A DNA stretch of 49,527 nt from Pseudoxanthomonas broegbernensis. Its GTDB lineage: Bacteria; Pseudomonadota; Gammaproteobacteria; Xanthomonadales; Xanthomonadaceae. Position 1 is the stretch's first letter. Each line of letters opens with the position of its first letter. Below are positions 30,026-49,058 of this stretch, one piece after another. The notes below the pieces were generated by a model. It worked only from the letters and a program-made list of their open reading frames with translations. It did no database searches and was not told where the DNA came from. The stretch is from positions 1 through 49,527 of the forward strand of contig NZ_JACHGU010000011.1 of NCBI RefSeq assembly GCF_014202435.1, in the 5' to 3' direction. The position numbers were made by a program, and so were the translations under genes.

Positions 30026-30415
30026 TTAGGGGCGCTTCCAGGCCACGCAATCCACCTCCACCTTGCAGTCCACCACCATGCGCGATTCCACGCAGGCCCG
30101 CGCCGGCGGGTGGTCGCCGAAGTAGTGCTGGAACACCGCGTTGAAGGCGTAGAAGTCGCGCGCGTCGTCCAGCCACACGCCGCAGCGCACCACGTGCTCG
30201 GGGCCGTAGCCGGCCTCGGCCAGGATCGCCAGCACGTTGCCGATGGCCACGTGCGACTGCTCGGTCACGGTGCCGGCGACCAGCTCGCCGTCGCGCATCG
30301 GCACCTGGCCGGAGACGTACAGCCAGCCGTCGGCCTGCACCGCGCGCGAGAACGGCATGCGCTGCCTGCCCTGGCCGACGCCGCCCTGCGCGCCGTAGCG
30401 GATGATGTCGTTCAT
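30026..30415 (-). CDS. RidA/YjgF-family protein
   Basis: 129 residues of the RidA fold, a trimeric deaminase that hydrolyses reactive enamine/imine products of PLP enzymes. PFSRAVQADGWLYVSGQVPM and the C-terminal CVESRMVVDCKVEVDCVAW are typical. The catalytic Arg in ESRM is kept, so imine hydrolysis is plausible. It follows the deacylase gene in the D-amino acid operon. A DSD1-type dehydratase or DadA nearby would create the imines it removes. The gap to the upstream gene is 148 bases, so it may also have its own promoter. Confidence 0.9.
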   Translation of the reverse strand: MNDIIRYGAQGGVGQGRQRMPFSRAVQADGWLYVSGQVPMRDGELVAGTVTEQSHVAIGNVLAILAEAGYGPEHVVRCGVWLDDARDFYAFNAVFQHYFGDHPPARACVESRMVVDCKVEVDCVAWKRP

Positions 30416-30563
30416 GGTTCCGGGCTCCTGCGGTGGGGATGATCTTCGGTGGGATAGCGGACGCTGCCGCCCATGGCCCCGGGTCGCTGGGGGGGCGGTC
30501 CCGCCTCCGGTGCGGCGCAAGAAGGCGGCTGCCCACGCGCGGGCCTCCTGTCGTGGGCGGGCA

Positions 30564-32012
30564 TCAGTCGGCGGGGACGAGGAAGCGGCCGTGGCGCCGT
30601 GGCTCGACGTCCTGGCCGTCGTAGGCGGGGCGCCCGTTGACCCATACCTGCACGATGCCGGCGGCCGGGCGCACCGGGTCGTGGAAGTCGGCCACGTCGC
30701 GCACGCGCCGCGGGTCGAACAGGACCAGGTCAGCCCAGGCGCCGGGTTCGATCTCGCCGCGCCCGTCCAGGCCGAAGGCGCGCGCGGACAGGCCGGTCAT
30801 CTTGTGCACGGCGGTGTGCAGCGGGAACAGCGCCTCGTCGCGCGCGTAGTGGCCCAGCACGCGCGGGAAGGTGCCCCACAGGCGCGGGTGCGGGCGCGGG
30901 TCGCGGGGCAGGCCGTCGGAGCCGATCATGGTCAGCGGGTGGGCCAGGATGCGGCGCACGTCGGCCTCGTGCATGCCGTGGTAGACCGCGCCGGCCGGCA
31001 TCAGCCGCTGCGCGGCCTCCAGCAGCGTGGCGTCCCAGCCGGCGGCGATCTCGGCCAGCATCCGCCCGCCTTGCTCCGGATGCGGGTCGGACCAGGTGAC
31101 CAGGATGTCGTGGGCGTCGGTGACCTGCTTCGGGTCCAGGGTCGAGGAACTGGCCGCGTAGGGATAGCAGTCGCAGGCCACGTCGTGCCCGTGCCCGGCG
31201 CGCTCCAGCGCGGCCAGCACCTCGCCGCTGCGGTGCCAGTTCTCCACGCCGGCGCACTTCAGGTGCGACACGCGCACCGGCGCGCCGCTCGCGCGCCCGA
31301 CCTGGAAGGCTTCCTCCATGGCCGGCAGGATGCCGTCGAACTCGTCGCGCAGGTGGGTGGCGTAGATGCGGCTGGCGGGCAGGTCGCGGACCAGCTCCAG
31401 CACCTCGCTGGACGGTGCCGCGTGGGCCGAGGCGTAGGCCAGGCCGGTGCTCAGGCCCAGCGCGCCGTCGGCGATGCTCTGCCGCAACTGCGCGCGCATG
31501 GCCGCGACCTCTGCCGGCGTGGCGGCGCGGTCCAGCCGGTCCATGTGGTTCTGGCGCAGCGCGGTGTGGCCCACCAGGGCGGCCACGTTCACCGCGGGGC
31601 GAGCGGCCTCCACCGCGGCGCGGTAGTCGGCGAAGCGCGGGTAGCGGAACTCCTCCGCCGCGCCCAGCAGGTTCATCGGGTCGGGCACCTGGGCCGCGGG
31701 CGCCACCGGGGTGGCGCTGATGCCGCAGTTGCCCACCACCACCGTGGTCACGCCTTGGGTGAGCTTGGCCGGCATGGCCGGGTTGCGGATCACCTCCAGG
31801 TCGTCGTGGGTGTGCACGTCGATGAAGCCCGGGGCCAGGGCCAGGCCGCGGCCGTCCACCGCCTGCGCGGCGGTCGCCGCGTCCGCCGCGCGGCCGGCCA
31901 GGACGATGCGCCCGTCGCGCACGCCCACATCGGCCACCCGTCCCGGGCGGTCGCGGCCGTCGAACACCAGCGCGCCGCGCACCAGCAGGTCGTAGGCGTC
32001 CAGGGTGTTCAT
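30564..32012 (-). CDS. N-acyl-D-amino-acid deacylase (cytoplasmic D-aminoacylase)
   Basis: 482 residues, one shorter than the Alcaligenes D-aminoacylase, with the metal site at the same numbers: His67 and His69 (DVHTHDD), Cys96 (VGNCGIS), His220 (ATHLRDE), His250 (VSHLK) and Asp366 (GSDGLP). It hydrolyses N-acyl-D-amino acids to free D-amino acids and the acyl group. There is no signal peptide. The start ATG 32012 was preferred to GTG 32021. It lies between the RpiR regulator and RidA in an operon with a D-amino acid lyase and a permease. Confidence 0.93.
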   Translation of the reverse strand: MNTLDAYDLLVRGALVFDGRDRPGRVADVGVRDGRIVLAGRAADAATAAQAVDGRGLALAPGFIDVHTHDDLEVIRNPAMPAKLTQGVTTVVVGNCGISATPVAPAAQVPDPMNLLGAAEEFRYPRFADYRAAVEAARPAVNVAALVGHTALRQNHMDRLDRAATPAEVAAMRAQLRQSIADGALGLSTGLAYASAHAAPSSEVLELVRDLPASRIYATHLRDEFDGILPAMEEAFQVGRASGAPVRVSHLKCAGVENWHRSGEVLAALERAGHGHDVACDCYPYAASSSTLDPKQVTDAHDILVTWSDPHPEQGGRMLAEIAAGWDATLLEAAQRLMPAGAVYHGMHEADVRRILAHPLTMIGSDGLPRDPRPHPRLWGTFPRVLGHYARDEALFPLHTAVHKMTGLSARAFGLDGRGEIEPGAWADLVLFDPRRVRDVADFHDPVRPAAGIVQVWVNGRPAYDGQDVEPRRHGRFLVPAD

Positions 32013-32052: not shown

Positions 32053-32976
32053 TCAGTCGCCCAGCGGCAGGCGGTTGTCGCCGCCGCGGTAGCTGTCCAG
32101 CGCCAGCTTGATCCGGCGCAGGCGCTCGCGGCTGTCGCCGGCCCGGTGCAGGGCCAGGGTGGTGGAGAGGATGTCGATGGCCAGCATCACCGCGTAGCGC
32201 GAGGCGGTGGGCTTGAACACGAAGTCGGTCTCGTCGATGACGATGGGCAGCAGCCAGTCGCTGAGTTCGGCCAGCGGCGTGCCGGCGCGGGTGATGGCGA
32301 CGACGCGCGCGCCGTAGCCGCGGGCGATCTCCAGCGCGGCCAGCAGCTCGGGGGTGAGGCCGCTGATGGACAGCGCCAGCACCACGTCCTGCGGCCCCAT
32401 GGTGGCGGCCACCATCTTCATCGCCAGCGAGTCGCTGCAGGGGATGACGGTGCGGCCCAGGCGCACGAAGCGGTTCTGCACCTCGCCGGCGAACACGGTG
32501 GACGCGCCGCCCATGCCGAAGGCGTAGACCATGCGCGCGCCGGACAGCGCCTCGGCGGCGGCCTGCACCAGCGGTTCCTGCATGCCGCCCAGGTTGCGCC
32601 GCAGGGCATCCTCGATGTCGGTGCAGATCTGCGCGTACAGGGCCGACACCGGCGGCGCGTCCGGCTCGTCGAGGAAGCGCTTGCCCACCGCGCTGGCCTC
32701 GGCCAGGCGCGCGCGCAGCTCGCGCACGTTCTCGCAGCCCAGGGTCTTGGCGAAGCGGGAGATGGCCGCCACGCTGACCTGGGCGCGCTCGGCCAGCTCG
32801 GCGATGCCCATCTGCGCGGCCGCGCTCACGTCGGCCAGGATGGCGTCGGCGATGCGCTTCTCGACCGGGCTGAGGATGTCGCGGTGCTCGCGCAGGTGGT
32901 AGACGATGTCGAACACTTCGGCCTCCCGGCGGGTAGCGCGGGCCCTGCCCGCATCGCCGCTGTCCGCGGCGTTCAC
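32053..32976 (-). CDS. RpiR-family transcriptional regulator
   Basis: 307 residues. An N-terminal HTH_6 domain (about 20-95, with LSPVEKRIADAIL and SVAAISRFAKTLGC) is followed by a SIS sugar-isomerase domain (about 125-265, FGMGGASTVFAGEVQNRF and ALSISGLTPELL). RpiR proteins usually sense phosphosugars, but members in D-amino acid gene sets are known. The start overlaps the stop of the permease gene by four bases. It probably controls this operon, and an AT-rich inverted repeat upstream of the first gene (35679-35701) is a candidate operator. Confidence 0.93.
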   Translation of the reverse strand: MNAADSGDAGRARATRREAEVFDIVYHLREHRDILSPVEKRIADAILADVSAAAQMGIAELAERAQVSVAAISRFAKTLGCENVRELRARLAEASAVGKRFLDEPDAPPVSALYAQICTDIEDALRRNLGGMQEPLVQAAAEALSGARMVYAFGMGGASTVFAGEVQNRFVRLGRTVIPCSDSLAMKMVAATMGPQDVVLALSISGLTPELLAALEIARGYGARVVAITRAGTPLAELSDWLLPIVIDETDFVFKPTASRYAVMLAIDILSTTLALHRAGDSRERLRRIKLALDSYRGGDNRLPLGD

Positions 32977-34328
32977 AACAGCACCGCCAGCAGGGCGGTC
33001 AGCCCCAGCGCGATCAGCGAGACCAGGGTCTCCAGCACCGTCCAGGTCTTGAAGGTCTGGGCCACGCTCATGTTGAAGTATTCCTTGACCAGCCAGAAGC
33101 CGCCGTCGTTGACGTGCGACAGCACCAGCGAGCCGGCGCCGGTGGCCAGCACCAGCAGCTCCGGGTGCGGGTAGCCGGCGGCCAGCGCCACCGGGGCTAC
33201 GATCCCGGCGGCGGTGCTCATGGCCACCGTGGCCGAGCCGGTGGCGATGCGCATCAGCGCGGCCACGGTCCAGCCCATCAGCAGCGGCGACAGCTCGAAG
33301 CGCTGCGACATCGCGGTGATCTCGGCGGCCACGCCGGTGCCGACCAGGATGCCGTTGAGGCCGCCGCCGGCGCCGACCAGCAGGGTGATGGCGGCGGTGG
33401 GCGCCAGGCAGTCCTGGGAGAACTTGAGGATCTGCTCGCGGCCGAAGCCGCGCATCAGGCCCAGGGTGACGAAGCTCAGCAGGGTGGCCAGCAGCAGCGC
33501 CACCACCGAGTTGCCGATGAAGCGCAGGCCGCCGTTGAGCGCGGTGCCCGGCGCGGCCAGTACGTCGGCCCAGCCGCCCAGCAGCATCAGCCCCACCGGC
33601 AGCAGCAGGGTGGCCAGGGTGATGCCGAAGCCGGGCAGCGCCTCGTCCGGCACATGGCCCAGGCCCTCGTCCAGCAGCGCCGCCTCCATCGGGTTGTTGC
33701 TAGGCAGGCGCACGCGCGGGGCGACGAGGCGGGCGAACACCGGCCCGGCCAGGGCCGCGGTCGGCAGGCCCACCACCAGCGCGTAGAACAGGGTGCGGCC
33801 GACGTCGGCCCGGTACTCGTGCACGGCCAGCATCGCCGCCGGGTGCGGCGGCACCAGCCCGTGCACCACCGACAGGCCGGCGACCATCGGCAGCCCCACC
33901 AGCAGCAGCGACACGCCGGTGCGCCGGGCCACGTTGAACACGATGGGGATCAACAGCACGAAGCCGACCTCGAAGAAGATCGGCAGGCCCAGGCCGAAGG
34001 CCACCAGCATCATCGCCCAGTGCACGTTGCGCGGGCCGAACCAGCCGATCAGCGTGCGCGCGATGCGCTCGGCGCCGCCGGATTCGGCCATCATCTTGCC
34101 CAGCATGGTGCCCAGGGCCACGATCAGGGCGATGTGGCCCAGGGTGCGGCCCACGCCCTGCTCGTAGGCGGCCACCACCTCGCCGGCCGGCATGCCCGCC
34201 ACCAGCGCCAGCCCCAGCGAGACCAGGGTCAGGGTGATGAAGGGATTGAGCCGGTAGCGCGCGATCAGCACGATCAGCGCGAGGATGGCGATAGCGGCGT
34301 AGACCAGCAGCAGGCTTCCCGGGGACAT
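32973..34328 (-). CDS. GntP/DsdX-family permease
   Basis: 451-residue membrane protein with about 12 hydrophobic segments of the gluconate:H+ symporter family. Typical stretches are RYRLNPFITLTLVSLGLALV near the start, GTMLGKMMAESGGAERIA, LVPPHPAAM and SHVNDGGFWLVKEYF. The family includes DsdX, the D-serine transporter of E. coli. In this operon the cargo is more likely a D-amino acid than gluconate, because no sugar acid kinase or dehydratase is nearby. It lies 36 bases behind the DSD1-type gene and overlaps the regulator gene. Confidence 0.92.
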   Translation of the reverse strand: MSPGSLLLVYAAIAILALIVLIARYRLNPFITLTLVSLGLALVAGMPAGEVVAAYEQGVGRTLGHIALIVALGTMLGKMMAESGGAERIARTLIGWFGPRNVHWAMMLVAFGLGLPIFFEVGFVLLIPIVFNVARRTGVSLLLVGLPMVAGLSVVHGLVPPHPAAMLAVHEYRADVGRTLFYALVVGLPTAALAGPVFARLVAPRVRLPSNNPMEAALLDEGLGHVPDEALPGFGITLATLLLPVGLMLLGGWADVLAAPGTALNGGLRFIGNSVVALLLATLLSFVTLGLMRGFGREQILKFSQDCLAPTAAITLLVGAGGGLNGILVGTGVAAEITAMSQRFELSPLLMGWTVAALMRIATGSATVAMSTAAGIVAPVALAAGYPHPELLVLATGAGSLVLSHVNDGGFWLVKEYFNMSVAQTFKTWTVLETLVSLIALGLTALLAVLL

Positions 34329-34364: not shown

Positions 34365-35621
34365 TCAGAAGTACGTGCGCACGACGCCGGTCACCCGCCA
34401 GGCGTCGTCCACGCGCAGCAGGTGCCGCCACTTGTCGAAGGTCAGGCACGGGTGGCAGATGTCGAAGCACAGCAGGTCGCCGACCCGCAGGTCGTCGCCG
34501 GCGTCCAGGTCCAGGAAGGCGTGCTGGTCCATGATCGAGCCCAGCCGCCAGTGCTCCGGCGCGGCCCGCGGCGCCTCGGTGCCGGGGCGGTGGTGCAGCA
34601 CCGGCAGCGGCAGGCCGGCGTCGAAGGCCGCATCGCGCTTGCCCAGGCCGACGATGGCCCGGCCCGGCTCCGGGCGCGACAGCACGCAGGCCCACAGTTG
34701 CAGCGCCGGGCGCAGGCCGTCGGCCATCCGCCGCGCCACCGGGTTGGAGGCGTGGATGCGCGCGTCCGCGCGGCGGTAGGCGCCGGCGTCGTGGGTGAGG
34801 TAGCAGCCCGGGCGCAGCAGCACCTGCACGCCCGGGTCCTTGGCGGCCGCGGCGAATTCCTCGGCGACCACGTCGTACCACGCCGAACCGGCGCCGGAGA
34901 GGATCGCGCGCGGCCCGGCGAAGGCGCCCGCCGCGCGCAGCGCCTGGAACTGCGCCAGGGTGCGCCGCAGCAGGGCGCGCACGCCGGCCTCCTCCTTCAG
35001 CACGCCCTCGTAGACCTCCACTCCCGCCAGCGCCAGCGCCCGGGGCCAGCGCGCGATGGCCTGGACCACTTCCTCCGCCTGCGCCGGATCGCGCACGCCG
35101 GTGCGGCCGCCGGCCGCGCCCACCTCCAGCAGCACCCGCAGGCGCAGGCCGCGTTCGCCGAAGAAGGCGCCCAGCGCATCGGCGCCGGCCACCGAGTCGA
35201 CCAGACAGCAGAACTCGAACTCCGCATCGGCCAGCAGGCCGGCGACGATGGCCATGTTGGCCCGGTCCACGAGCTGGTTGGCCATCAGCACCCGGCGCAC
35301 GCCGTGGCGGTACGCGTCGCGCACCTGCGGCGCGGTGGCCAGGGTGATGCCCCACGCGCCGGCTTCCAACTGCAGGGCGAACAGCTCCGGGCTCATCGTG
35401 GTCTTGCCGTGCGGCGCCAGTTCCAGCCCGTAGGCGGCGATGAAGTCGCCCATCCAGGCCAGGTTGTGGCGCAGCGCCGAGTCGCGCAGTACCGCCGCCG
35501 GCAGGCTCACTTCGCCTTCGAGCAGGCGCCAGCCCAGGTCCGCCACGGTCTGTGGCGTGGCCGTCCCGGCTCCCAGTCCCTTACCTGAAAGGGGGATGCG
35601 AGTGGAATTTTCAGTGGACAT
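34365..35621 (-). CDS. DSD1-type PLP enzyme (D-amino acid deaminase or D-threo-aldolase)
   Basis: 418 residues of the fold-type III alanine racemase N-domain with a D-serine dehydratase-like C domain. Lys73 in HGKTTMSP binds PLP. His390 and Cys392 in DICHPCLTFDKW are the zinc ligands of DSD1-type D-serine dehydratases and D-threonine aldolases. It probably removes ammonia from D-serine or D-threonine, or cleaves a beta-hydroxy D-amino acid. Sequence alone does not separate these. ATG 35621 heads the DSD-GntP-RpiR-deacylase-RidA operon. Confidence 0.9.
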   Translation of the reverse strand: MSTENSTRIPLSGKGLGAGTATPQTVADLGWRLLEGEVSLPAAVLRDSALRHNLAWMGDFIAAYGLELAPHGKTTMSPELFALQLEAGAWGITLATAPQVRDAYRHGVRRVLMANQLVDRANMAIVAGLLADAEFEFCCLVDSVAGADALGAFFGERGLRLRVLLEVGAAGGRTGVRDPAQAEEVVQAIARWPRALALAGVEVYEGVLKEEAGVRALLRRTLAQFQALRAAGAFAGPRAILSGAGSAWYDVVAEEFAAAAKDPGVQVLLRPGCYLTHDAGAYRRADARIHASNPVARRMADGLRPALQLWACVLSRPEPGRAIVGLGKRDAAFDAGLPLPVLHHRPGTEAPRAAPEHWRLGSIMDQHAFLDLDAGDDLRVGDLLCFDICHPCLTFDKWRHLLRVDDAWRVTGVVRTYF

Positions 35622-35656
35622 GCAGGTATTTTCTGCGATATGTGGCGATTTATGGG

Positions 35657-35675
35657 CACACTGTGTAGCACACTG
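35657..35675. promoter_or_regulatory. Direct repeat upstream of the D-amino acid operon
   Basis: CACACTG occurs at 35657-35663 and again at 35669-35675, with a period of 12 bases, about one helical turn. This fits a tandem binding site for a regulator in the promoter of the operon starting at 35621. Confidence 0.4.
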
Positions 35676-35678
35676 CCG

Positions 35679-35701
35679 GTAAATTTAAAAATAAATTTCA
35701 C
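35679..35701. promoter_or_regulatory. AT-rich inverted repeat, candidate RpiR operator
   Basis: AAATTTA (35681-35687) and TAAATTT (35692-35698) form a dyad around AAAA inside a wider GT...AC frame. It is the only strongly AT-rich spot in this GC-rich region and resembles known RpiR/HexR-type operators. It lies about 60-80 bases upstream of the DSD1-type gene. The assignment is inference. Confidence 0.45.
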
Positions 35702-35794
35702 ATTCCCCGGGCATGTGCCTGCCGCTTGCCGGCGAAAGTGGCGGCCGCGTCGCGTGCGTGTCGCGCCCTGGAGCGCGGGCCGGCAAGCGCCGGC

Positions 35795-36706
35795 TCAGGC
35801 GTCGTTGCGGGCGCCGGCCTGGCGCACCTCGCGCAGGGTGGCGGTGAACAGCTCGATGAACTGCTCGGCGGTGCGCGAGGGCGGCCGGTCTTCCAGGTGC
35901 ACGCATTCGATGCGGAAGGTGATGGCCGGGTCGATCGGGCGGAAGCCGACCCGCTCGTCCGCGCTCACCCGCGCGGTGAACTCGTCGACCACGGTCATGC
36001 CCGCGCCGCAGCGGGTCAGCGCCGCGGCCAGGTAGTAGGTCTGGTTGGACACCACCTCGTGGATGTTCACGCCCTGGCGCTCGAGTTCGCCGTCCAGCAG
36101 GTCGGCGATCGGACCGCTGCTGGCCAGGCCCACCAGGTCGCGTCCGTCCAGCCAGGCGATGGGCACGCTGGGGCCGGGGTCGGGCATCTCGCTGTGCCGG
36201 TACAGCAGCATCAGTTGGCCATGGTCGAGCGTGCGCCGCTGCATGCGCGGGTGCTGCGGCGGGTTGTAGGCGAAGGCGATGTCGCACTCGCGCTCGTACA
36301 GGGCGCGGAACAGGTCGTCGTGGTGCAGGGTCTGCACGTCGAAGGTCACCTGCGGGTGGCGCCGGCGGAACAGCGCGATCGCGCGCGGCGCCACGTACAG
36401 GCCCAGCGAAGGCACCACCGCCAGGCGGATATGGCCGCCGCCGCCGTTGCGCAGGTTGGCCACGGTCTTTCGCAGCGAGGCGGTCCGTTCGAAGATGTCC
36501 TTGACCTCGACGAACAGCGCGTGCGCCTCGTCGGTGGCCACCAGGCGCCCGCGCACCAGGGTGAACAGCTCGAAGCCGAGCTGGTACTGGGTGTGGTGCA
36601 GCACCTTGCTGACCGAGGGCTGCGAGACGTGCAGGGCACGCGCCGCGGCACTGATCGAGCCGGTGGTGTAGATCGCGTGGAAGACTTCTATCTGGCGCAG
36701 CCGCAT
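35795..36706 (-). CDS. LysR-family transcriptional regulator
   Basis: 303 residues. N-terminal winged helix-turn-helix (1-60, SISAAARALHVSQPSVSKVLHH), linker helix and a periplasmic-binding-type effector domain (about 92-295, IRLAVVPSLGLYVAP onward). It is the third gene behind ggt1 and dadA2, 40 bases after dadA2. Candidate binding sites of LysR type (T-N11-A dyads) lie in front of ggt1/TonB receptor and in front of the exported deacylase operon. The effector is probably a D-amino acid, its oxo acid or a gamma-glutamyl compound. Confidence 0.93.
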   Translation of the reverse strand: MRLRQIEVFHAIYTTGSISAAARALHVSQPSVSKVLHHTQYQLGFELFTLVRGRLVATDEAHALFVEVKDIFERTASLRKTVANLRNGGGGHIRLAVVPSLGLYVAPRAIALFRRRHPQVTFDVQTLHHDDLFRALYERECDIAFAYNPPQHPRMQRRTLDHGQLMLLYRHSEMPDPGPSVPIAWLDGRDLVGLASSGPIADLLDGELERQGVNIHEVVSNQTYYLAAALTRCGAGMTVVDEFTARVSADERVGFRPIDPAITFRIECVHLEDRPPSRTAEQFIELFTATLREVRQAGARNDA

Positions 36707-39919: not shown

Positions 39920-40064
39920 ACGCGTCGGCAACTTTCCTTCGCGACAAACCACGGCGCGATGGCCAACCTAGGTGATGGAGGGGGCGGTCTGCTGCGAACA
40001 ATCGCGGCGACGACTGGCCGCACCGCCACATACGAGCACACATCCTTCTGGCGGGAGCTATCAC

Positions 40065-42857
40065 GTGATCGGCAATAAATCACCTCATCTGCTCGCACGG
40101 AGCATTCTGCTGTGTCTGGGCGGTTTCGCCATCGGCGCACACGCGGCGCCGCCGCAGCCGGCGTCCGGCCCGGATGAACGACCGCAGAAATCGCCACCGG
40201 CGGCATCCGGGCAACAGGCAAGGGAACAGGCGTCGGTAACGCTCGACGCGATCTCGGTCACCGGCTCGCGCGTCGTCGGCGGCGACTACGAGTCGCCGAC
40301 GCCGGTGACCATGATCGAGTTCGAGCAGATCGAACTGGCCGCACCCAACAACATCGCCGACTACCTCAACACCCTGCCTTCGATGGTCGGCGACAGCACG
40401 ACCATGGAAGGCAACAACTCCATCAGCGCCGGCGCCACCGGCATGAACCGGCTCAACCTCCGCGGGCTGGGTGCGGACCGCACCCTGGTCCTGGTGGACG
40501 GCCGCCGCTTCGTCGGCTCCACGCTGGAAGGAAACGTCGACATCAACGGCCTGCCCAACGGGCTGATCCGCAGCATCGACGTGGTGACCGGCGGCGCCTC
40601 GTCGGTGTACGGCTCGGACGCGGTCGCCGGCGTGGTCAACTTCGTGCTGGACACGCGCTACACCGGCCTCAAGGGCTTCGCCCAGGTGGGCCAGTCGCGC
40701 TACCACGACGACCGCCAGCAGAACGGCGGCCTGACCTTCGGCACGCCGTTCGCCGATGGCCGCGGCCACTTCCTGCTCAACGCGGAATATGCGCACAACT
40801 CCGGCGTCGGCGCCGCGCGCGACCGGCCCTGGTACGGCGGGCACGGGATCATGACCAATCCCGCCTGGACGCCCACCAACGGCGAGCCGTACCGCATCAC
40901 CGTGCCGTTCCTCAATCGGCCCAACGAGGCGTCGGCCGGGCTGATCCCCAGCGGACCGCTCAAGTGGACCACCTTCGATGCGGACGGTTCGCCGCGCCAG
41001 TTCGACTACGGGGTGCTCGACCTGACCGGCTCGGCGTCGTCGGGGGGCGAGGTGGACGGCCATTTCGCCACGATGTCGCTGAAGGGCGCGGTCGAGCGGC
41101 ACAGCCTGTTCGCGCGGGGCTCGTTCGAGATCAACGACGCCTTCGAGGCGTTCGCCGAGGCCAGCCATTCCCGGTCGGTGGTGAACACCAACTCCTCGTA
41201 CAACTATTACAACGGCAGCCTGTCGATCAAGTCGGACAACGCCTACCTGGACCCGCGCACGCGCGAGGCCATGGTGGCCGCGGGCGCATCCAGCGCCCCG
41301 TACGGGTTGCTGCTGGGCGTGGCCTCGCCGCGGGTGGAGGTGAACACCTATCGCGCCGTTTTCGGCGTGAACGGATCGTTCGGCGACAATTGGACGCTCG
41401 ACGCGTACTACCAATACGGTGAAAGCCGGCTCAACACCGTCGTCAACAACGTCACCAACACGACCCGCCTGGGCCTGGCGCTCGATGCCGTCGTCGACCC
41501 GGCCAGCAACCGCATCGTGTGCCGCTCCACCCTGGCCGATCCCGGCAACGGCTGCGTGCCGATCAATACCTTCGGTGGCGCGAGCCTCTCCGAGCCCGCG
41601 CTGGACTACGTCATCGGCGAGCCCAGCTTCCGGCAGACCATGAAGCAGCAGGTCGCCTCGGCCAGCATCCAGGGCGAGGCCTTCTCCACCTGGGCCGGGC
41701 CGGTCATGACCGCGTTCGGCATCGAGCACCGGCGCGAGGCCGTCGGCGGCGCCGTCGACGACCAGGGCCAGCCGCGGCAGTGGCTCTTCGGCAACTTCAT
41801 GGCGACCCACGGCGAGAACCGGATCAACGAGGTGTTCTCCGAGATGCTGATGCCCCTGACCGAACGGTCGCTGGCGTTCAACGGCGCGGTGCGCGTGGCC
41901 GATTACAGCTATTCGGGCATCGCGGTCACCTGGAAGGGCGGCCTGACCTGGCAGCCGAACGACTCTGTCCTCCTCCGGACCGTGCGCTCGCGCGACATCC
42001 GCGCGCCCAACCTGGGCAACCTGTACCAGGCCGGCCTGACCCAGCGCCAGAACGTGCGCGACCCGTGGTTCAACGACACCCAGCGCAACATCGAGCGGAT
42101 TTCCCAGGGCAACCTCGCGCTGAAGCCGGAAGTGGCCGACACCAGCAGCATCGGCCTGGCGCTCACCCCGGCGCGCTGGCCGGGCGTGCGCGGCGCGATC
42201 GACTACTACCAGATCGAGATCAAGGACGCGATCGCCACGCTCAACGACCAGCAGACCGTGGACCGGTGCCACCAGGGCGACACCGCCGTATGCTCCTTCG
42301 TGGTGCGCGACGGCACGGGTGCCGTCTCCGGGCTGATCCGCACGCCGATCAACATCGCCAAGCGGACCGTGCGCGGCGTGGACATGGACGTGTCCTACCT
42401 GCAGGCCGTGCCGTTCATCGCGCCCGGCGCCGAGCTGGATCTGCGCCTGGTCGCCAGCCGCCTGCTGGAAAGCCGCAACGAGGACCCGTTCAGCAGCATC
42501 GACTACGCCGACGAGAACATCGCCGGCTCGGCCAAGCAGCGGGCGCTGTTGACGGCGACGTTCCGGAACGGGCCGCTGCGGTTCGGTGCCTCGGCGCGCT
42601 TCATTGGCAAGGGCGTGCTGAGCAACGAGTGGGTCGACGGGGTGGACATCGACGACAACACCGTGCCCAGCACCTGGTACCTGGGGCTGTTCGGCTCGTA
42701 CCACTTCCCCGGCGACAGGCTGGAGGCGTTCTTCCGCGTCGACAACGCGCTCGACCGCGCGCCGCTGGTCATCGGCACGAACCGCAACGGCATCAACCCG
42801 GTGCTGTACGACGTGATCGGCAGGTACGCGAGCGTCGGCGTACGCTTCCAGTTCTGA
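40065..42857 (+). CDS. TonB-dependent receptor of the large Xanthomonas type
   Basis: 930-residue outer-membrane receptor. I chose the GTG at 40065 because GGGAG sits 7 bases upstream and it gives a proper signal peptide (LLARSILLCLGGFAIGAHA). An upstream in-frame start would add 31 unlikely residues. The plug (about 60-190) has SVTGSRVVGGDYESPTPVTM and LNLRGLGADRTLVLVDGRR. The barrel ends in ASVGVRFQF. Family members take up siderophores, sugars or peptides. Since ggt1, ggt2, a peptidase and a deacylase surround it, peptide or gamma-glutamyl substrates are likely. A box of LysR type lies upstream. Confidence 0.92.
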   Translation: MIGNKSPHLLARSILLCLGGFAIGAHAAPPQPASGPDERPQKSPPAASGQQAREQASVTLDAISVTGSRVVGGDYESPTPVTMIEFEQIELAAPNNIADYLNTLPSMVGDSTTMEGNNSISAGATGMNRLNLRGLGADRTLVLVDGRRFVGSTLEGNVDINGLPNGLIRSIDVVTGGASSVYGSDAVAGVVNFVLDTRYTGLKGFAQVGQSRYHDDRQQNGGLTFGTPFADGRGHFLLNAEYAHNSGVGAARDRPWYGGHGIMTNPAWTPTNGEPYRITVPFLNRPNEASAGLIPSGPLKWTTFDADGSPRQFDYGVLDLTGSASSGGEVDGHFATMSLKGAVERHSLFARGSFEINDAFEAFAEASHSRSVVNTNSSYNYYNGSLSIKSDNAYLDPRTREAMVAAGASSAPYGLLLGVASPRVEVNTYRAVFGVNGSFGDNWTLDAYYQYGESRLNTVVNNVTNTTRLGLALDAVVDPASNRIVCRSTLADPGNGCVPINTFGGASLSEPALDYVIGEPSFRQTMKQQVASASIQGEAFSTWAGPVMTAFGIEHRREAVGGAVDDQGQPRQWLFGNFMATHGENRINEVFSEMLMPLTERSLAFNGAVRVADYSYSGIAVTWKGGLTWQPNDSVLLRTVRSRDIRAPNLGNLYQAGLTQRQNVRDPWFNDTQRNIERISQGNLALKPEVADTSSIGLALTPARWPGVRGAIDYYQIEIKDAIATLNDQQTVDRCHQGDTAVCSFVVRDGTGAVSGLIRTPINIAKRTVRGVDMDVSYLQAVPFIAPGAELDLRLVASRLLESRNEDPFSSIDYADENIAGSAKQRALLTATFRNGPLRFGASARFIGKGVLSNEWVDGVDIDDNTVPSTWYLGLFGSYHFPGDRLEAFFRVDNALDRAPLVIGTNRNGINPVLYDVIGRYASVGVRFQF

Positions 42858-42968: not shown

Positions 42969-44738
42969 ATGGGACACGAACGTACGGGCAGGCGCCTGCG
43001 CTGGACCGCCTTCGCCGCGCTGGCCGCGGTGCTGGCGGCGCCGCTGCCCGACGCGGGGGCGGCGCACCCGCATGCGCCCGTCCCGCCCGCGCCGCGCGAA
43101 CTGCTCAACTACGCCGCGATCGAGAAGCCAGTGCGCGCCGAGCGCGGCATGGTGGTCAGCCAGAGCGAGGCGGCCAGCGCCGCCGGCGCGCGGATCCTGC
43201 GCGCGGGCGGCAATGCCGTGGACGCGGCGGTCGCCACCGCCTTCGCCATGGCGGTGACCCTGCCGCGCGCCGGCAACATCGGCGGCGACGGCTACATGCT
43301 CATCCACACCGCCGGCGAGCGGCGCACGCGGGCCATCGACTTCCGCTCGACCGCGCCGGCGGCGGCCACGCTGGAGCGCTACCTGGACGCACAGGGCAAG
43401 GTGGCCGGCGACAAGGCCGGATATCTCGCCGCCGGAGTGCCGGGCACCGTCGCCGGGCTCGCACTGGCCCACCGCAAGCACGGCAGGCTGCCCTGGGCCG
43501 ACCTGCTGCAGCCGGCGATCGCGCTGGCGGCCGAAGGCATCGTGCTCAGCCACGACGAGGCCTTCGCGCTGGACTGGGGCAGGCAGCGGCTGTCGCTCAG
43601 CGGCCCCGGCGCGGCGGTGTTCCTGCATGCCGACGGCAGCGCCCTGCGCGCCGGCGAGCGATTGCTGCAGCCGGACCTGGCCTGGTCGCTGCGGCAGATC
43701 GCCGAGCACGGCGAGGACGCCTTCTACCGCGGCCGGATCGCCGAGCGCCTGGCCGCCGGCATGGCGCGCCACGGCGGCCTGATCACCCGCGCCGACCTGG
43801 CCGGGTACCGGGCGATCGAGCGCGCGGCGCTGCGCACCACCTACCGCGGCGTGGAGGTGGCCACCATGCCGCCGTCCAGCGGCGGCGGCGCCAGCATCCT
43901 GGAGATGCTCAACATCCTCGAACACACCGACCTGCGCGCGCAGGGGGCGGGTTCGGCCGCGGCCCTGCACGCGATGGCCGAGGCGATCAAGCTGGCCTGG
44001 GCCGATCGCGGCCGCTACGCCGGCGATCCCGATTTCGCCACGCTGCCCACCGCCGGCGTGGTCTCCAAGGCGTACGCTGCGGAACGCGCGAAGCTGATCT
44101 CGCCCACGCGGGCGCGGCCCGCGCCGCAGGCCCCGCCCGGCGACCCGTGGCCGCACGAAAGCCCGCAGACCACCCACTTCTCGGTCGTCGACACCGACGG
44201 CAACGCGGTCAGCGCCACCTACACGCTGGGCTCGGACTTCGGCGCGGGGGTGATGATCGAGGGGACCGGCTTCCTGCTCGGCAACCTGGTCGGCAACTTC
44301 TCGATCGAGGCGCAGGCCGAGGCCGCGCGCGCGGGCGAACCGGCGCCGGCCAACGCGCTGCTGCCCGGGCGCCGCCCGGTGTCGAGCATGTCGCCCACCC
44401 TGCTGCTCCGCGACGGCGCGCTGTGGATGGCCACCGGCAGCCCCGGCGGCAACACCATTCCCGGCACGGTGATGCAGATGATCGTGAATGTGGTCGACTT
44501 CGGCATGAACATCGCCGAGGCCACCCACGCGCCGCGCATCCACCAGGAGATGCGCGGCGGCGAACTGCGCGTGGAGCGCGGCCTGAGCCCGGACACCGTG
44601 CGCCTGCTGGAAGGGCTGGGCCACCGCGTGGTGCCGGGCGAGACCATCGGCAGCACCCAGACCCTGATGCTTGGCGCGCAGGGCGTGGAGGGCGCCGCCG
44701 ACCCGCGCCGGCCGGGGGCCGGCGCCGTGGCGGAATGA
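42969..44738 (+). CDS. Gamma-glutamyltransferase family protein 2, altered pocket
   Basis: 589 residues with signal peptide (FAALAAVLAAPLPDAGA). Thr401 in QTTHFSVVD is the autoprocessing site and nucleophile. Arg126 (IDFRSTAP) and SSM at 472-474 are conserved. The segment that reads NNQMDDF in E. coli GGT is GNLVGNF here (438-444), so the Asp that grips the donor amino group is replaced by Asn or Gly. The protein is therefore unlikely to be a standard glutathione hydrolase. It may act on N-blocked or polymeric gamma-glutamyl substrates or as an acylase. The ATG follows AAGGAG. It ends 22 bases before the converging serine hydrolase gene. Confidence 0.9.
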   Translation: MGHERTGRRLRWTAFAALAAVLAAPLPDAGAAHPHAPVPPAPRELLNYAAIEKPVRAERGMVVSQSEAASAAGARILRAGGNAVDAAVATAFAMAVTLPRAGNIGGDGYMLIHTAGERRTRAIDFRSTAPAAATLERYLDAQGKVAGDKAGYLAAGVPGTVAGLALAHRKHGRLPWADLLQPAIALAAEGIVLSHDEAFALDWGRQRLSLSGPGAAVFLHADGSALRAGERLLQPDLAWSLRQIAEHGEDAFYRGRIAERLAAGMARHGGLITRADLAGYRAIERAALRTTYRGVEVATMPPSSGGGASILEMLNILEHTDLRAQGAGSAAALHAMAEAIKLAWADRGRYAGDPDFATLPTAGVVSKAYAAERAKLISPTRARPAPQAPPGDPWPHESPQTTHFSVVDTDGNAVSATYTLGSDFGAGVMIEGTGFLLGNLVGNFSIEAQAEAARAGEPAPANALLPGRRPVSSMSPTLLLRDGALWMATGSPGGNTIPGTVMQMIVNVVDFGMNIAEATHAPRIHQEMRGGELRVERGLSPDTVRLLEGLGHRVVPGETIGSTQTLMLGAQGVEGAADPRRPGAGAVAE

Positions 44739-44760: not shown

Positions 44761-46125
44761 CTACTCGGCCACGCGCTCGAAGTGGATGGCCGAGGTGCGT
44801 CCCGCGCGCACCGTGATGCCGCGCCCGTCCGGGTCGGCCAGCAGGGTCAACGAGGCGTTGCCGAAGCCGCCTTCGGCAGCGCGGCGCAATAGCTGGCGGG
44901 TGCCGGCCGCGGGCGACCGGTCCGCCACGATCTCCAGCCGGAGGTCGTCGCCCTCGGCCTGGAGCACGTAGCGCGCGGGCAGCTCCGGCGAGCGATAGAT
45001 GCCGCTCACCGCCCGGGCGTCGGGAACCGTCAGCAAGCCCGGCCGGAGGTGTTCGATCACCGCATCCAGCTTGTCCTGCGTCACCCAGTCGGCCCGGTTA
45101 CACAGCACGGCCACGCTCAGCCCGTCGTCCGGCAGCCGCGCGTAGACATGGCGGAACCCCTCGGCACTGCCGGTGTGCTGCACGAACCCGCGGCCCTTGC
45201 GCGGCCCCACGGCAAGGCCGCCGGCGTAGGGCATGGCGTCGGCCCCGTACAGCGCCGGCGAGCCATCGGCCAGCGCGCCCGGCTGCAACATGATCCGGCG
45301 GATGGCGGGGGTCCAGACCCGGTGGCCATGCGCGATGTCGTACTCGTAGCGCGCCAGGTCGTTCATGCTGAGCATCAGCCCGCCCGACCCGCCGAAGCGC
45401 GGGTAGCCGTCGCGGATTTCGAACCCGTCCCCGACGGGAGCGTAGCCGTGCGCGAGGTTGTCGCCGGCCGGGTCCGCGCCGTCCAGGAAATAGCTGTCGC
45501 GCATCCCCAGGGGGGCGAGGATGCGCTCGGCGGCATAGCCGGCGAAGGGCTTGCCGGAAACCCGCTCGACGATCTCGGCCAGCAGCAGGTAACCGCCGTT
45601 GGAGTATGCGAGCGCCGTCCCGGGGGCGAAATCGGTGCGCTGCTGCAGGGCCAGCAGGCGCAATGCCTCCTGCTTGGCGCCCGGCGCGGCCGGGTCCATG
45701 CCCGCCATCCGCATCAGCGTGATCCAGTCGCGCACGCCGGAGGTGTGGTGGAAGAGCATCGACACCGTGATGCCGTCGGCCCAGGCCGGCAACTCGGGGA
45801 GGTGCAGGCGCACTTCGTCGTCCAGCGACAGCGCGCCCGCCTGCGCCAACTGCGCCACGGCCAGGACCGTGAACTGCTTGGAGATCGAGGCGGCGTAGAA
45901 CACCGTGTCCGCGTCCAGCCGCCGCCGCGCGGCGATGTCGGCGAACCCGCTGGCGGCGATCGCCTGCGGGCGGCCGTCGTCGAACACGCCGATGACGCAG
46001 CCGGGCGCGACCGAGTGCAGGGGGTCCTTCACCAGCGCGGCGAGCGGGTCGCCGGGCGGCGGCTCCGCGGCCAGGGCGGTGCCGCCGAACGCCAGTGCCG
46101 ACAGCAGCAGGATCCGTACGCTCAT
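44761..46125 (-). CDS. Exported S12 serine hydrolase (beta-lactamase/D-aminopeptidase fold)
   Basis: 454 residues with a signal peptide (ILLLSALAFGGTALAA). Catalytic motifs are Ser80-x2-Lys83 (ASISKQF), Tyr174-Ser-Asn176 (YSNGG) and His317-Thr-Gly (QHTGSAEG). The C-terminal 120 residues form a separate beta-rich domain, as in D-aminopeptidases and related S12 peptidases. Family members are DD-peptidases, D-aminopeptidases, esterases or beta-lactamases. In this neighbourhood a D-aminopeptidase or D-peptide hydrolase is the best guess. It follows gltS by 79 bases. Confidence 0.88.
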   Translation of the reverse strand: MSVRILLLSALAFGGTALAAEPPPGDPLAALVKDPLHSVAPGCVIGVFDDGRPQAIAASGFADIAARRRLDADTVFYAASISKQFTVLAVAQLAQAGALSLDDEVRLHLPELPAWADGITVSMLFHHTSGVRDWITLMRMAGMDPAAPGAKQEALRLLALQQRTDFAPGTALAYSNGGYLLLAEIVERVSGKPFAGYAAERILAPLGMRDSYFLDGADPAGDNLAHGYAPVGDGFEIRDGYPRFGGSGGLMLSMNDLARYEYDIAHGHRVWTPAIRRIMLQPGALADGSPALYGADAMPYAGGLAVGPRKGRGFVQHTGSAEGFRHVYARLPDDGLSVAVLCNRADWVTQDKLDAVIEHLRPGLLTVPDARAVSGIYRSPELPARYVLQAEGDDLRLEIVADRSPAAGTRQLLRRAAEGGFGNASLTLLADPDGRGITVRAGRTSAIHFERVAE

Positions 46126-46204: not shown

Positions 46205-47410
46205 TCACCAGAAGTTGATGAAGCCGGTGATGATCAGCGCGTTGGTGAAGTCGATGAAGAACGCGCCCACCAGCGGCGCCACCAGGAATGCGCGCGGGGC
46301 CATGCCGTAGCGCTGCACCAGGGTGCGCATCACCGCCATCGCGTTGGCGGTGGTGCCGAGCATGAAGCCGATGAAGCCGCCGCCCATCACCGCCGCGTCG
46401 TAGTCGCGGCCCATCAGCCAGAACACCGGCACCGCGAACAGCACCACCAGCGTCACCTGTACCGCCAGGTTGACCAGAAGCGGCAGACCCATGCCGGCCA
46501 GTTCCCACAGCCGCAGGTTCATCAGCGCCACCGCCAGGAACAGGGCCAGGCAGACGTTGCCGATCAGTTCCACCGTATGCACCGGCAGGCCGATCCAGCC
46601 GCTGGCGTCGTCCAGGTTGCGGATCAGCGCGCCCACCAGCATCGCGCCGATGTAGGCCGGCAGGGTCAGGCCGAGCGCATCGAAGCCCTTGCCCAGCCAG
46701 GAACCGGCCCACATCGCCAGCAGGATCAGCACGATCGCCTTGAGCGCGTTGAACTCGCGCACCGCGTCGGTCTCCGGATGCACCGCGTTGCCGCTGGCCG
46801 CGTCGGCCACCGGGGTGGGCGCGGCGCCGCCCGGGTTCGGGTTGACCACCTTGAAGCGGCGCATCAGCACGGTGATCGCCGGGCCGCCGACCACGCCGCC
46901 GCAGACGATGCCGGCCATGGCCGCGGTGACCGCGATGGACTCGGCGCCCTGCAGGCCGGCGGCCTCGAACAGCGGGGCGAAGGCCAGGCCGGTGGCCGGC
47001 CCGCCGGTGAGCGTGGCCGAACCGGCCAGCACGCCGAACATCGGATGCAGCCCGAACATCCCGGCCACGGCGATGCCCACCAGGTTCTGGACCACCGCGA
47101 AGCCGCTGGCCAGCGCCAGGAACAGCACCACCTGGCGGCCGCTGATCTTGAGCAGCCCCAGGCTGGCGTTGACCCCCATGGTGGTGAAGAAGGCGATCAT
47201 CAGCGGCGCCTGCAGCGAGGTGTCCAGTTCGAACAGCGTGGTCCCGCGGCCGTGCGCCCACCAGGCGGCCAGCGCCACCAGCAGGCCGCCGATCACCGGT
47301 TCGGGCAGGTTGTAGCGGCTCAGCACCGGTATCGTCCGGCACAGCGCATAACCGGCGAAGAGCGCCAGCCCGCCGAAGGCCACGGTTTGGACGGCATCCA
47401 ACTGGATCAT
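46205..47410 (-). CDS. gltS: Sodium/glutamate symporter GltS
   Basis: 401-residue ESS-family carrier with two pseudo-symmetric halves of about five membrane segments and re-entrant loops. The signatures are GGLLVALAAW, TTMGVNASLGLLK, GSATLTGGPATGLAFAP and GFMLGTTANAMAVM. E. coli GltS takes up L- and D-glutamate with sodium. The ribosome site GAGGTGAG precedes ATG 47410. It lies between the exported deacylase (34 bases upstream) and the S12 hydrolase, so it can import glutamate, including the D form, freed in the periplasm. Confidence 0.93.
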   Translation of the reverse strand: MIQLDAVQTVAFGGLALFAGYALCRTIPVLSRYNLPEPVIGGLLVALAAWWAHGRGTTLFELDTSLQAPLMIAFFTTMGVNASLGLLKISGRQVVLFLALASGFAVVQNLVGIAVAGMFGLHPMFGVLAGSATLTGGPATGLAFAPLFEAAGLQGAESIAVTAAMAGIVCGGVVGGPAITVLMRRFKVVNPNPGGAAPTPVADAASGNAVHPETDAVREFNALKAIVLILLAMWAGSWLGKGFDALGLTLPAYIGAMLVGALIRNLDDASGWIGLPVHTVELIGNVCLALFLAVALMNLRLWELAGMGLPLLVNLAVQVTLVVLFAVPVFWLMGRDYDAAVMGGGFIGFMLGTTANAMAVMRTLVQRYGMAPRAFLVAPLVGAFFIDFTNALIITGFINFW

Positions 47411-47444
47411 CGGGACTCACCTCGGTTCGGGTCGTGACGAAGGT

Positions 47445-49058
47445 TCATGGGCAGGCGCCCTCGGGCGGCCGGTGCCGCAGCATGCGGCCGGCCAGCGCCG
47501 CGGTGGCCTGGCCGTCGTCGATGGCCGGCACGCCATCCACCAGCAGCGTGCGCACCCCGCGGGACAGTACGCGCGGGGCCAGGTAGTCGGCGGCCGGCGC
47601 GTAGGCGTCCGGGTCGAACACCACCACGTCGGCCCAGGCGCCGGGCACCAGCCGGCCCCGGTCCCGCAGGCCGAGGATGGACGCGGTCAGGCCGGTGGAG
47701 CGATGGATGAAGGCGTCCAGGTCCAGTACGCCCTGGCCGCGCACGTAGCGCGCGTACTTCTCCGGGAAACTGGCGTACTGGCGCGGATGACCATCGCTGC
47801 CGTCGGAACTGGTGGCCATCCACGGCCGGGCCATCAGCAGGCGCAGGTCGTCCTCGTCCATGTTGAAGGAGGCCACCGCCTCGGCCGGGCGGCTGCCGGG
47901 CAGGCCGTCGCCGCGCACGATCCGCAGCGCCGCCTCCACCGCGTCCACCCGCCAGTACGCGGCCATCTGCGCCAGGGTGCGGCCGGTCCAGGGCTGGCCG
48001 GCGGAGGTGAGCAGCAGCGCCTCGGCACCGCCGCGCCGGCGCAGGTTGTCGCGCATCTCCGTGGCGATGCGCGCCGACTGCAGGGGATCGCGCAGGCGCC
48101 GCAGCAGGGCCGGGCGGCCGCCGTCCTCGGCCCAGCGCGGCAGCAGCGCCGCGGACAGGCGCGTGCCCGAGGCCAGCCACGGGTACTGGTCGGCGGTCAC
48201 GCGCAGGCCCTGGGCGCGCGCGTCCTCGATCATCCGCACCAGCGCGCCGGCCTGGCCGTGCACGTCCGCGCCCAGCGCCTTGAGATGCGCGAAGTGCATC
48301 GGCAGGCCGGCGCGCCGGCCGATCTCGATGGCCTCGGCGGTGGAGGCCAGCAGGCCGATGCCGTAGGAGGACTCGTCGCGCTGGTGGGTGTCGTACAGGC
48401 CGCCGCGCCGTGCCGCCTGCCGCGCCAATGCCACCACCTCGCCGGTGCCGGCGAAGCTCTGCGGCGCATAGAACAGGCCGGTGGACAGGCCGAACGCGCC
48501 CTCGCACATCGCCTGCGCCACCAGCGCCTCCATCCGCGCCAGTTCCACGGCGTCGGGCGCGCGCGCGCTCTCGCCCAGCACCGCGCGGCGCACCGGACCC
48601 AGGCCCACGTAGGGCACCAGGTGGGTGCCCACGCCGTGCTCGGCGAACCACGCGCGCTGGCGCGCGATGTCCACCGCGCCGCCGCCGTCCACGCCGATGG
48701 CCAGCGTGGTCACGCCCTGGAACAGCCAGGGCAGGTTGCGCCGCTGCAGCGGGTCGTCCGCGCGGATGTAGCGGTCCGGGTGGGTATGCGGGTCGATGAA
48801 GCCGGGCGCCACCGCCAGGCCGCGGGCGTCGATCGTGCGCGCGGCGCGGTAGCCGCGCGCCGCATCCGGGCCCACCGCCAGCACCCGGCCCTCGCCGATC
48901 ACCAGATCGCGCACCCGGGCGCGGTCGTGCTCGCCTCCGTCGTGGAGCAGGCCGCCGACGATGGCCAGGTCGGCGGGCCGGTCCTGCGCGCCGGCCGCCG
49001 CGGGGGCCAGCGCCAGCGCGATCCACAGGCAGTACCGGAGTCGGCGTATACGGGGCAT
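47445..49058 (-). CDS. Exported N-acyl-D-amino-acid deacylase-like amidohydrolase
   Basis: 537-residue amidohydrolase with a signal peptide (LWIALALAPAAAGAQ), unlike the cytoplasmic copy at 30564. His91 and His93 (PHTHPD), the later His in MHFAHLK and the Asp in SSDGSDG are present. The position that is the bridging Cys96 in D-aminoacylase (GNCGIS) here reads GVDGGG, so Asp or another residue must bridge the metals. The family splits into such variants, and the substrate may be an acyl-D-amino acid or a dipeptide. ATG 49058 heads the operon deacylase-gltS-S12 hydrolase. Confidence 0.88.
   Translation of the reverse strand: MPRIRRLRYCLWIALALAPAAAGAQDRPADLAIVGGLLHDGGEHDRARVRDLVIGEGRVLAVGPDAARGYRAARTIDARGLAVAPGFIDPHTHPDRYIRADDPLQRRNLPWLFQGVTTLAIGVDGGGAVDIARQRAWFAEHGVGTHLVPYVGLGPVRRAVLGESARAPDAVELARMEALVAQAMCEGAFGLSTGLFYAPQSFAGTGEVVALARQAARRGGLYDTHQRDESSYGIGLLASTAEAIEIGRRAGLPMHFAHLKALGADVHGQAGALVRMIEDARAQGLRVTADQYPWLASGTRLSAALLPRWAEDGGRPALLRRLRDPLQSARIATEMRDNLRRRGGAEALLLTSAGQPWTGRTLAQMAAYWRVDAVEAALRIVRGDGLPGSRPAEAVASFNMDEDDLRLLMARPWMATSSDGSDGHPRQYASFPEKYARYVRGQGVLDLDAFIHRSTGLTASILGLRDRGRLVPGAWADVVVFDPDAYAPAADYLAPRVLSRGVRTLLVDGVPAIDDGQATAALAGRMLRHRPPEGACP

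Follow-up and report, generated by a model that had tools for sequence, protein, structure and literature searches.

Gene content of the stretch and its division into two units

The window analysed here is the whole of contig C11 from the 3.47 Mb genome of Pseudoxanthomonas broegbernensis, 49,527 nucleotides long, with sequence readable only to position 49527. Between positions 30026 and 49058, 13 adjacent open frames of named families were confirmed by matches to profile and NCBIfam models: RidA (PF01042), Amidohydro_3, RpiR/SIS, GntP, Ala_racemase_N with D-ser_dehydrat, LysR, DAO/DadA, GGT, a TonB receptor, a further GGT, the S12 beta-lactamase fold, GltS and an exported Amidohydro_3 protein. 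The positions and family calls of the original prediction, which had been made from the letters alone, held throughout. The TonB receptor and the second GGT gene are on the plus strand; the remaining genes are on the minus strand and run, from right to left, exported amidohydrolase, GltS and S12; GGT1, DadA and LysR; then DSD1-like enzyme, GntP, RpiR, amidohydrolase and RidA. This 19 kb stretch very probably consists of two separable catabolic units that share a single chromosomal location next to the MATCAP and RsgA genes, namely unit A (30026-35621) and unit B (35795-49058), whose members are marked in the list below. The explanation considered best as a whole, and reasonably likely, is that these are two units of which A would handle N-acetylglucosaminate (GlcNAc1A), an oxidised-chitin product, and B would salvage D-amino acids. 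Gene content and order, clade, pocket residues and the occurrence of each unit without the other are observed, and the substrates, the part played by Rid and the direction of regulation are inferred.

30026..30415, minus strand: OngD-like RidA/Rid family protein, unit A (129 aa; PF01042 matched in the longer frame, TIGR00004 below cut-off; most likely start 30415)
30564..32012, minus strand: predicted OngB-like deacetylase of the GlcNAc1A deacetylase clade, unit A (482 aa; from PDB scores, pocket residues and tree)
32053..32976, minus strand: OngR-like MurR/RpiR regulator, unit A (307 aa; HTH_6 and SIS; best NCBIfam model HexR, 140 of 296 bits)
32973..34328, minus strand: GntP-family permease, unit A (PF02447, 494 bits; TIGR00791 above cut-off)
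34365..35621, minus strand: OngC-like pyridoxal phosphate (PLP) deaminase, unit A (PF14031 and PF01168; 3gwq, 533 bits; OngC tree)
35622..35794, no strand: intergenic stretch preceding unit A, in which an AT-rich imperfect palindrome is a weak candidate for an OngR operator
35795..36706, minus strand: LysR regulator, unit B (family match; adjoins DadA in relatives)
36747..37985, minus strand: DadA-type FAD D-amino acid dehydrogenase, unit B (412 aa; PF01266; NF001933, 325 bits against a cut-off of 383)
38003..39769, minus strand: GGT1, unit B (signal-like N-terminus; classical glutamyl-site residues retained; start 39724 preferred by start analysis)
39972..42857, plus strand: TonB-dependent receptor, unit B (PF07715 and PF00593; start codon uncertain, 40305 preferred)
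42969..44738, plus strand: GGT2, unit B (signal-like N-terminus; N411G/Q430L/D433N-type glutamyl site, E. coli numbering)
44761..46125, minus strand: S12 serine hydrolase, unit B (PF00144; signal-like N-terminus)
46205..47410, minus strand: GltS glutamate:sodium symporter, unit B (PF03616; TIGR00210, 325 bits, above cut-off)
47445..49058, minus strand: exported amidohydrolase of the D-aminoacylase superfamily, unit B (537 aa; PF07969; AfDam, 180 bits; residue map; a start at 49058 fits)

The division was drawn from a family sample of 119 genomes, in which the OngB-like protein of unit A was counted at E <= 1e-60. This protein was found in seven of the 119 genomes and the exported amidohydrolase of unit B likewise in seven, and both were present only in the source genome and its congener G010. 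Conserved co-occurrence of the gene set had been named as a check in the original prediction; the set was largely not kept together in related genomes.

The constant flank of this variable site consists of a MATCAP/QEGLA metalloprotease family gene (28455-29837) with RsgA as its neighbour. Beside this flank, G016 and G091 carry DSD1-GntP-RpiR-OngB-RidA and, over the 34 kb covered, no match to any other gene of the island. In G063 and G003 this place is occupied by LysR-DadA-GGT1-GGT2-GltS-exported amidohydrolase together with a receptor (27% in G003), with no unit A, and their S12 matches are just 30-31% and on the opposite strand. Both units are adjacent in G010 (S12 match none), GltS and DadA are the sole window genes besides the flank in congener G346 (L172 5550-8024), and congeners G060 and G087 have no module gene on that flank side within 7-8 kb. 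Because A, B, both or neither occur beside the same flank, the site is taken to be one at which related modules are exchanged. For G359, G047, G093 and G116 the unit genes and the MATCAP gene were on different contigs, which in fragmented assemblies may reflect a contig break. Two genomes count against a complete division and suggest some tie between the units: unit A is followed by GltS and DadA in G029, and it has GltS and both GGT types nearby in Stenotrophomonas acidaminiphila (L051). Given that the units occur without each other in relatives, the single 13-gene route from uptake to deamination that had been proposed was rejected.

Unit A, its OngB-like enzyme and partner genes

Published sources are cited by PMC accession, as far as the available part of each text extends. 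Pseudoalteromonas prydzensis degrades GlcNAc1A via ongCRBD and ongIT-kdgK-ongA (PMC9537276). In that pathway OngB (annotated as a putative D-aminoacylase) deacetylates, OngC (a putative D-amino acid deaminase) yields 2-keto-3-deoxygluconate (KDG), OngD is a Rid protein of open role and OngR is a MurR/RpiR repressor (PMC9537276). Homologues of OngC, OngR, OngB and OngD are adjacent in the window, where the order C-GntP-R-B-D equals the published ongCRBD with an inserted transporter. We hold with good confidence, on the basis of gene order and the residues described below, that unit A is probably a GntP-type variant of the ong operon for GlcNAc1A. It resembles the cluster of P. prydzensis ACAM 620 in C-R-B-D order, families and OngB pocket, and it differs in having GntP and none of the SSS transporter OngIT, KdgK, OngA and OngOT (PMC9537276).

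The OngB-like protein (queried as 30564-32009) was compared with solved structures and scored 593 bits against 9g5m, 533 against PpOngB (9kb1), 457 against AfDam (1m7j) and 404 against BbDam (3gip, an N-acyl-D-glutamate deacylase). Among the substrates tested, PpOngB was active on GlcNAc1A alone; AfDam and BbDam were active on N-acetyl-D-amino acids and inactive on GlcNAc1A, and the OngB pocket residues were defined from structure and mutants (PMC12017989). All five PpOngB pocket residues are present in the window enzyme (A193, A256, S292, Q298 and G348, with numbering carried over from alignment). It has Ser, without the Thr of AfDam/BbDam type, at the Ser292 position, and Ala at 193 and 256, without the larger hydrophobic pocket. 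The metal ligands and catalytic Asp are shared with PpOngB; the superfamily and the carboxylate-binding Lys, Tyr and Arg, common to both window amidohydrolases, are shared with AfDam and BbDam, from which this enzyme differs by the OngB pocket. In a tree of 88 rows (quick method, SH-aLRT only, with the short L099 and L074 left out and BbDam not included), the window enzyme, PpOngB (on a long branch) and 9g5m were placed in one 56-row clade with an SH-aLRT of 98, and AfDam was placed outside. The best named relative by locus, among the best 80 of 424 confirmed relatives, was S. acidaminiphila (73% in OngB); from its listing under Lysobacteraceae, the source would belong to that family. No signal peptide was seen by eye. 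The original prediction had called the protein a cytoplasmic D-aminoacylase, and this label was rejected because of the OngB-type pocket and the grouping with PpOngB and not AfDam; its sequence has diverged from PpOngB, and its activity on GlcNAc1A is a prediction.

Partner genes were counted by a genome scan at 80 named loci (the best 80 of the 424), with neighbours accepted at >= 60 bits. Loci were sorted by an OngB-type Ser292 and Gln298 only, in an alignment that fails to reproduce the structural Leu298 equivalence given for AfDam (PMC12017989). This pocket was present at 50 of the 80 loci. A GntP or SSS neighbour was found at 34/50 pocket loci and 1/30 loci without the pocket, and DgoK or KDPG aldolase at 11/50 and 0/30. 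OngC (35/50 versus 9/30), RpiR (41/50 versus 10/30) and Rid (36/50 versus 5/30) followed the same division. These contrasts are somewhat inflated, because the loci that lack the pocket span less sequence (median 15.6 versus 21.4 kb) and the query proteins came from this family. OngC, RpiR or Rid neighbours alone were rejected as proof of GlcNAc1A use, given that they are also found near other pockets.

The OngC-like protein scored 533 bits against 3gwq, and the next solved relative scored 76 bits. In the OngC tree (49 rows, careful method, only rows > 300 aa; L112 and L120, with an OngC-like match and no OngB pocket, excluded), one branch parted 41 pocket-type rows from 8 others with a support of 100/100, and 0 of 500 shuffles gave a value as low. 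Genome G091 was assigned to the pocket group by hand, and its pocket was confirmed afterwards.

Since GntP replaces OngIT, unit A is called a variant and not a standard ong member. The permease had been described as DsdX-like; it scored 449 bits with the gluconate model TIGR00791 (cut-off 293) versus 298 bits with the DsdX model (cut-off 618), which argues against that description. The same replacement was found in Cupriavidus numazuensis (L064), where KDPG aldolase, PfkB kinase, OngC, OngR, OngB, RidA and GntP are clustered, and aldolase and GntP were present together at 4 of the 50 pocket loci; these cases tie GntP-type clusters to KDG. Family genome G093 has the SSS-type version of the cluster and an AA10 lytic polysaccharide monooxygenase (LPMO). 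In Bordetella hinzii (L101 2423-11887), the OngC-like gene is separated from OngR-OngB-RidA by frames that to the eye resemble those of a peptide ABC transporter, perhaps a third kind of importer for an ong-type operon. In Pseudomonas sp. NFIX28 (L056 4716-11455), genes for LysR, a GGT, GntP, RpiR and OngB lie in a row.

In the pathway proposed for unit A, GntP would probably import GlcNAc1A across the inner membrane in place of OngIT, the OngB-like enzyme would remove acetate, and the OngC-like PLP enzyme would deaminate the resulting D-glucosaminate to KDG. The Rid protein would assist in dealing with a reactive intermediate, and repression would fall to the RpiR protein. Enzymes from other parts of the genome would then phosphorylate and cleave KDG; KdgK and OngA (GH20) are absent from unit A, and PfkB, KDPG-type aldolase (two KDPG/KHG-aldolase matches) and GH20 matches were found elsewhere. 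The AT-rich palindrome at 35622..35794 is a weak candidate for the OngR operator: it has 3 mismatches to the GAAAATAATTTTC form of close relatives, which was present with 0 to 2 mismatches at only 3 of 42 named OngC loci (L060, L051 and L097; L112, too short, left out) and was seen by eye also in G016, G091 and G029.

The source of the substrate was considered from the glycoside hydrolases of the genome. GH18 was present in 7/7 OngB-positive family genomes versus 0/3 congeners that were searched and found without OngB (11 related genomes in all, with G346, which had no GH18 match, not counted as OngB-negative). The source genome has a GH18 frame with a signal-like N-terminus and two GH20 genes in tandem, following a frame that reads by eye like a TonB receptor. 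As its genome encodes GH18 and GH20 enzymes but lacks an AA10 LPMO, the source strain would be a scavenger; uptake of GlcNAc1A made by neighbours, with help from these enzymes of its own, would fit best.

Several observations weigh against the assignment of unit A to GlcNAc1A. No match to the AA10 LPMO model (LPMO_10) was found in the source genome, in which the P. prydzensis arrangement is incomplete in this respect, or among the five family genomes that carry a GntP-type cluster (source included), and the 11 of 119 family genomes with LPMO_10 include only 2 of the 7 that are OngB-positive. No KDG kinase or aldolase lies in the window's operon, and the nearest KDG-kinase relative elsewhere in the genome has 35% identity over part of its length; the PfkB kinase of L064 falls far short of its best model, at 194 bits against a cut-off of 400. 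The protein at L100 10001-11416 (Acerihabitans arboris) falls inside the OngB clade without the pocket, having Thr and Arg at two specificity positions. The program used for the OngC tree warns that long branches meet at the split, and OngC, RpiR and Rid neighbours occur at loci without the pocket, as counted above. At the 11 Pseudomonas loci no OngC or Rid neighbour was found, which the assignment does not explain. Among the open-licence PMC papers listed, no GntP protein assayed for GlcNAc1A import was found.

No description of a GntP-type ong cluster was found among the open-licence papers listed. Complete ong pathways were placed in Gammaproteobacteria and one Achromobacter by Jiang et al., and Lysobacteraceae is not among the groups named in the available part of that paper (PMC9537276). 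Clusters of 'D-aminoacylase, D-serine deaminase, RidA, GntP' are easily mistaken for D-amino acid systems. Judging by its clade and pocket residues and by how the partner deaminases divide, we would assign the window cluster, and similar ones in Cupriavidus and acidobacterial bins, to a form of oxidised-chitin catabolism that uses a different importer.

Unit B, its exported amidohydrolase and associated genes

Unit B is read, with moderate confidence, as D-amino acid salvage that runs largely outside the inner membrane. Its likeliest substrate would be acidic D-amino-acid peptides, perhaps the stem peptides of murein, and in our judgement D-glutamate may be the amino acid concerned, although we place this slightly short of an even chance.

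The exported amidohydrolase has a signal-like N-terminus (MPRIRR...AGAQ, read from the sequence) and retains HxH, both His ligands, the catalytic Asp and the carboxylate-binding Lys, Tyr and Arg. At the metal-ligand Cys position of D-aminoacylases and OngB it has Asp, as do 15/18 exported-type rows in all, and it lacks the Cys/His/His metal site; it scored only 180 and 160 bits against AfDam and BbDam. With the metal ligand replaced, the earlier name of exported D-aminoacylase denotes a relative and not a match.

A scan at E <= 1e-80 found the exported enzyme in 12/299 genomes of the order and 8/369 of the class, with the source genome and G010 in both counts. Surroundings were covered for 17 other genomes (G012 and G111 being distant; hits in G214, G255, G281 and G624 left out), in which nearby genes included a TonB receptor in 12, LysR in 10, DadA in 9, GltS in 5, GGT in 5 and an M14 carboxypeptidase in 5. 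The receptor count weighs little, because TonB receptors are common genes. Outside the family, DadA was near the exported amidohydrolase in 6/10 genomes, GGT in 1 and GltS in 0; DadA, LysR and a TonB receptor were present together in 5/10 (G218, G121, G612, G707 and G201). As a control, DadA was found at 0 of the best 80 OngB loci. In G121 a single open frame (L152 2176-4845) encodes an M14 carboxypeptidase domain followed by an exported-type amidohydrolase, near DadA, LysR, a TonB receptor, a PF00939 carrier and an M19 dipeptidase. A PF00939 carrier is present in G508 too, and such carriers, if they substitute for GltS, would agree with transport of an acidic amino acid. The M14 profile was nearest to M14 chains of the cytosolic-carboxypeptidase type; MpaA was a weak match only (E 0.004), so an 'MpaA-like' label is not claimed.

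GltS and DadA appear to work together, for which the best evidence here is the G346 site with only these two genes; this link had been part of the original prediction and is supported. The best NCBIfam model for DadA was NF001933, yet at 325 of 383 bits it remained below the curated cut-off. Raised dadA expression was reported during growth on D-glutamate in Raoultella and Pseudomonas (PMC6131576), and a Vibrio fischeri auxotroph requires less D-glutamate when it has mutant gltS alleles (PMC12502697).

The two GGT proteins differ at the glutamyl site, for which we take the E. coli residue numbers to apply, consistent with the alignment. GGT1 retains Arg114, the Thr391 nucleophile, Asp433 and Ser462/463. 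GGT2 shares the Thr nucleophile, Arg114 and Ser462/463 with E. coli GGT and differs by N411G (7/7 rows), D433N (7/7 rows) and Q430L (6/7 rows), so that the alpha-amino-binding Asp433 is missing. In E. coli GGT, D433N abolished transpeptidation, kept ~82% of hydrolysis and gained glutaryl-7-ACA acylase activity; class IV cephalosporin acylases have Asn at position 433, like GGT2, and D-glutamine is accepted as a donor by the E. coli enzyme (PMC8062742). The nearest solved chains of the S12 protein were Pbp-related beta-lactamase, alkaline D-peptidase, D-Ala-D-Ala carboxypeptidase and D-aminopeptidase. The motifs SISK, YSN and HTG were read from its sequence.

In the proposed route, the TonB receptor would admit a D-amino-acid-bearing peptide, the GGT-family and amidohydrolase enzymes would free the D-amino acid outside the inner membrane, GltS would import it (D-glutamate as a best guess) and DadA would oxidise it, with the LysR regulator in control. 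The D433N-type GGT2, together with the L-Ala-capped D-Glu of murein peptides, suggests a narrower and doubtful form of this route, in which unit B dismantles peptides with gamma-linked D-glutamate, e.g., murein stem peptides, in the periplasm. GGT2, no longer needing a free alpha-amino group, would cut the gamma-D-Glu bond of L-Ala-capped D-Glu (an M14 carboxypeptidase may replace it in relatives from other families), the exported amidohydrolase would split L-Ala from D-Glu, and import by GltS or a PF00939-type carrier and oxidation by DadA would follow. E. coli recycles murein tripeptide in the cytoplasm; the gamma-D-Glu route, if true, would instead work outside the cytoplasm and salvage the cell wall for carbon and nitrogen.

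Other findings speak against the D-amino acid salvage reading of unit B or limit it. Around the exported enzyme, LysR and DadA matches were absent in 7/17 and 8/17 genomes, and the S12 gene accompanies unit B only inconsistently (no match in G010). No description of unit B was found among the open-licence PMC papers listed. Unit B provides a recurring gene set with which the idea of periplasmic D-glutamate salvage can be put to the test on purified enzymes.

Alternative explanations and related systems

The stretch might instead be a single integrated D-amino acid and gamma-glutamyl island, in which GntP is a DsdX-like importer, the DSD1-like protein is a D-serine/D-threonine lyase and both amidohydrolases are D-aminoacylases. 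The adjacency of the units in the window and G010 and the mixed neighbourhoods of G029 and S. acidaminiphila favour such an island, as does the ability of Rid proteins to accelerate D-arginine dehydrogenase in vitro (PMC5619798). It is nevertheless very unlikely: A and B are found apart at the same site, GntP fits the gluconate model better than DsdX, relatives' clusters contain a KDG-type kinase and aldolase, and the window amidohydrolase has the clade and pocket of PpOngB, which is inactive on N-acetyl-D-amino acids (PMC12017989). The D-amino-acid reading of the original prediction therefore fared differently in its two halves; for the cytoplasmic half (GntP, DSD1-like enzyme, amidohydrolase, RidA and RpiR) GlcNAc1A fits better, and for the GltS and DadA half the reading was kept. 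Unit B alone could be gamma-glutamyl or glutathione salvage for L-glutamate, with the D-amino acid genes as chance neighbours. GltS is named for glutamate, and both GGT and GltS handle L-glutamate in known cases; this is quite unlikely, however, since outside the family the exported amidohydrolase keeps company with DadA and hardly with GltS or GGT, GGT2 has lost the alpha-amino-binding Asp, and G346 has GltS with DadA as the only window genes beside the flank.

For unit A, the OngB/OngC chemistry might act on a related acid, i.e., free D-glucosaminate, its N-acetyl form from a non-LPMO source, or N-acetylgalactosaminate. The lack of AA10 LPMO in family genomes with the GntP-type cluster would agree with this, as would the coupling, in G116, of a variant pocket with DgoK and 2-dehydro-3-deoxy-6-phosphogalactonate aldolase. 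A related acid is still considered unlikely for the window, where the pocket is of the GlcNAc1A type including Gln298; GH18 is present wherever the unit is present in the tested genomes, and the source genome has two GH20 genes. At the G116 locus itself (L014 5275-8328), the OngB relative beside these two genes has a non-OngB pocket (Phe, Thr, Tyr) and might act on the galacto form.

The D-glutamate genes dguABC of P. aeruginosa combine a D-amino acid dehydrogenase with a Rid protein, a theme met here as well; they are not known to include an exported amidohydrolase or GGT. At the other end of the contig, the first 2 kb (1-2000) has a GC content of 59%, versus 68-76% in the other 2 kb bins.

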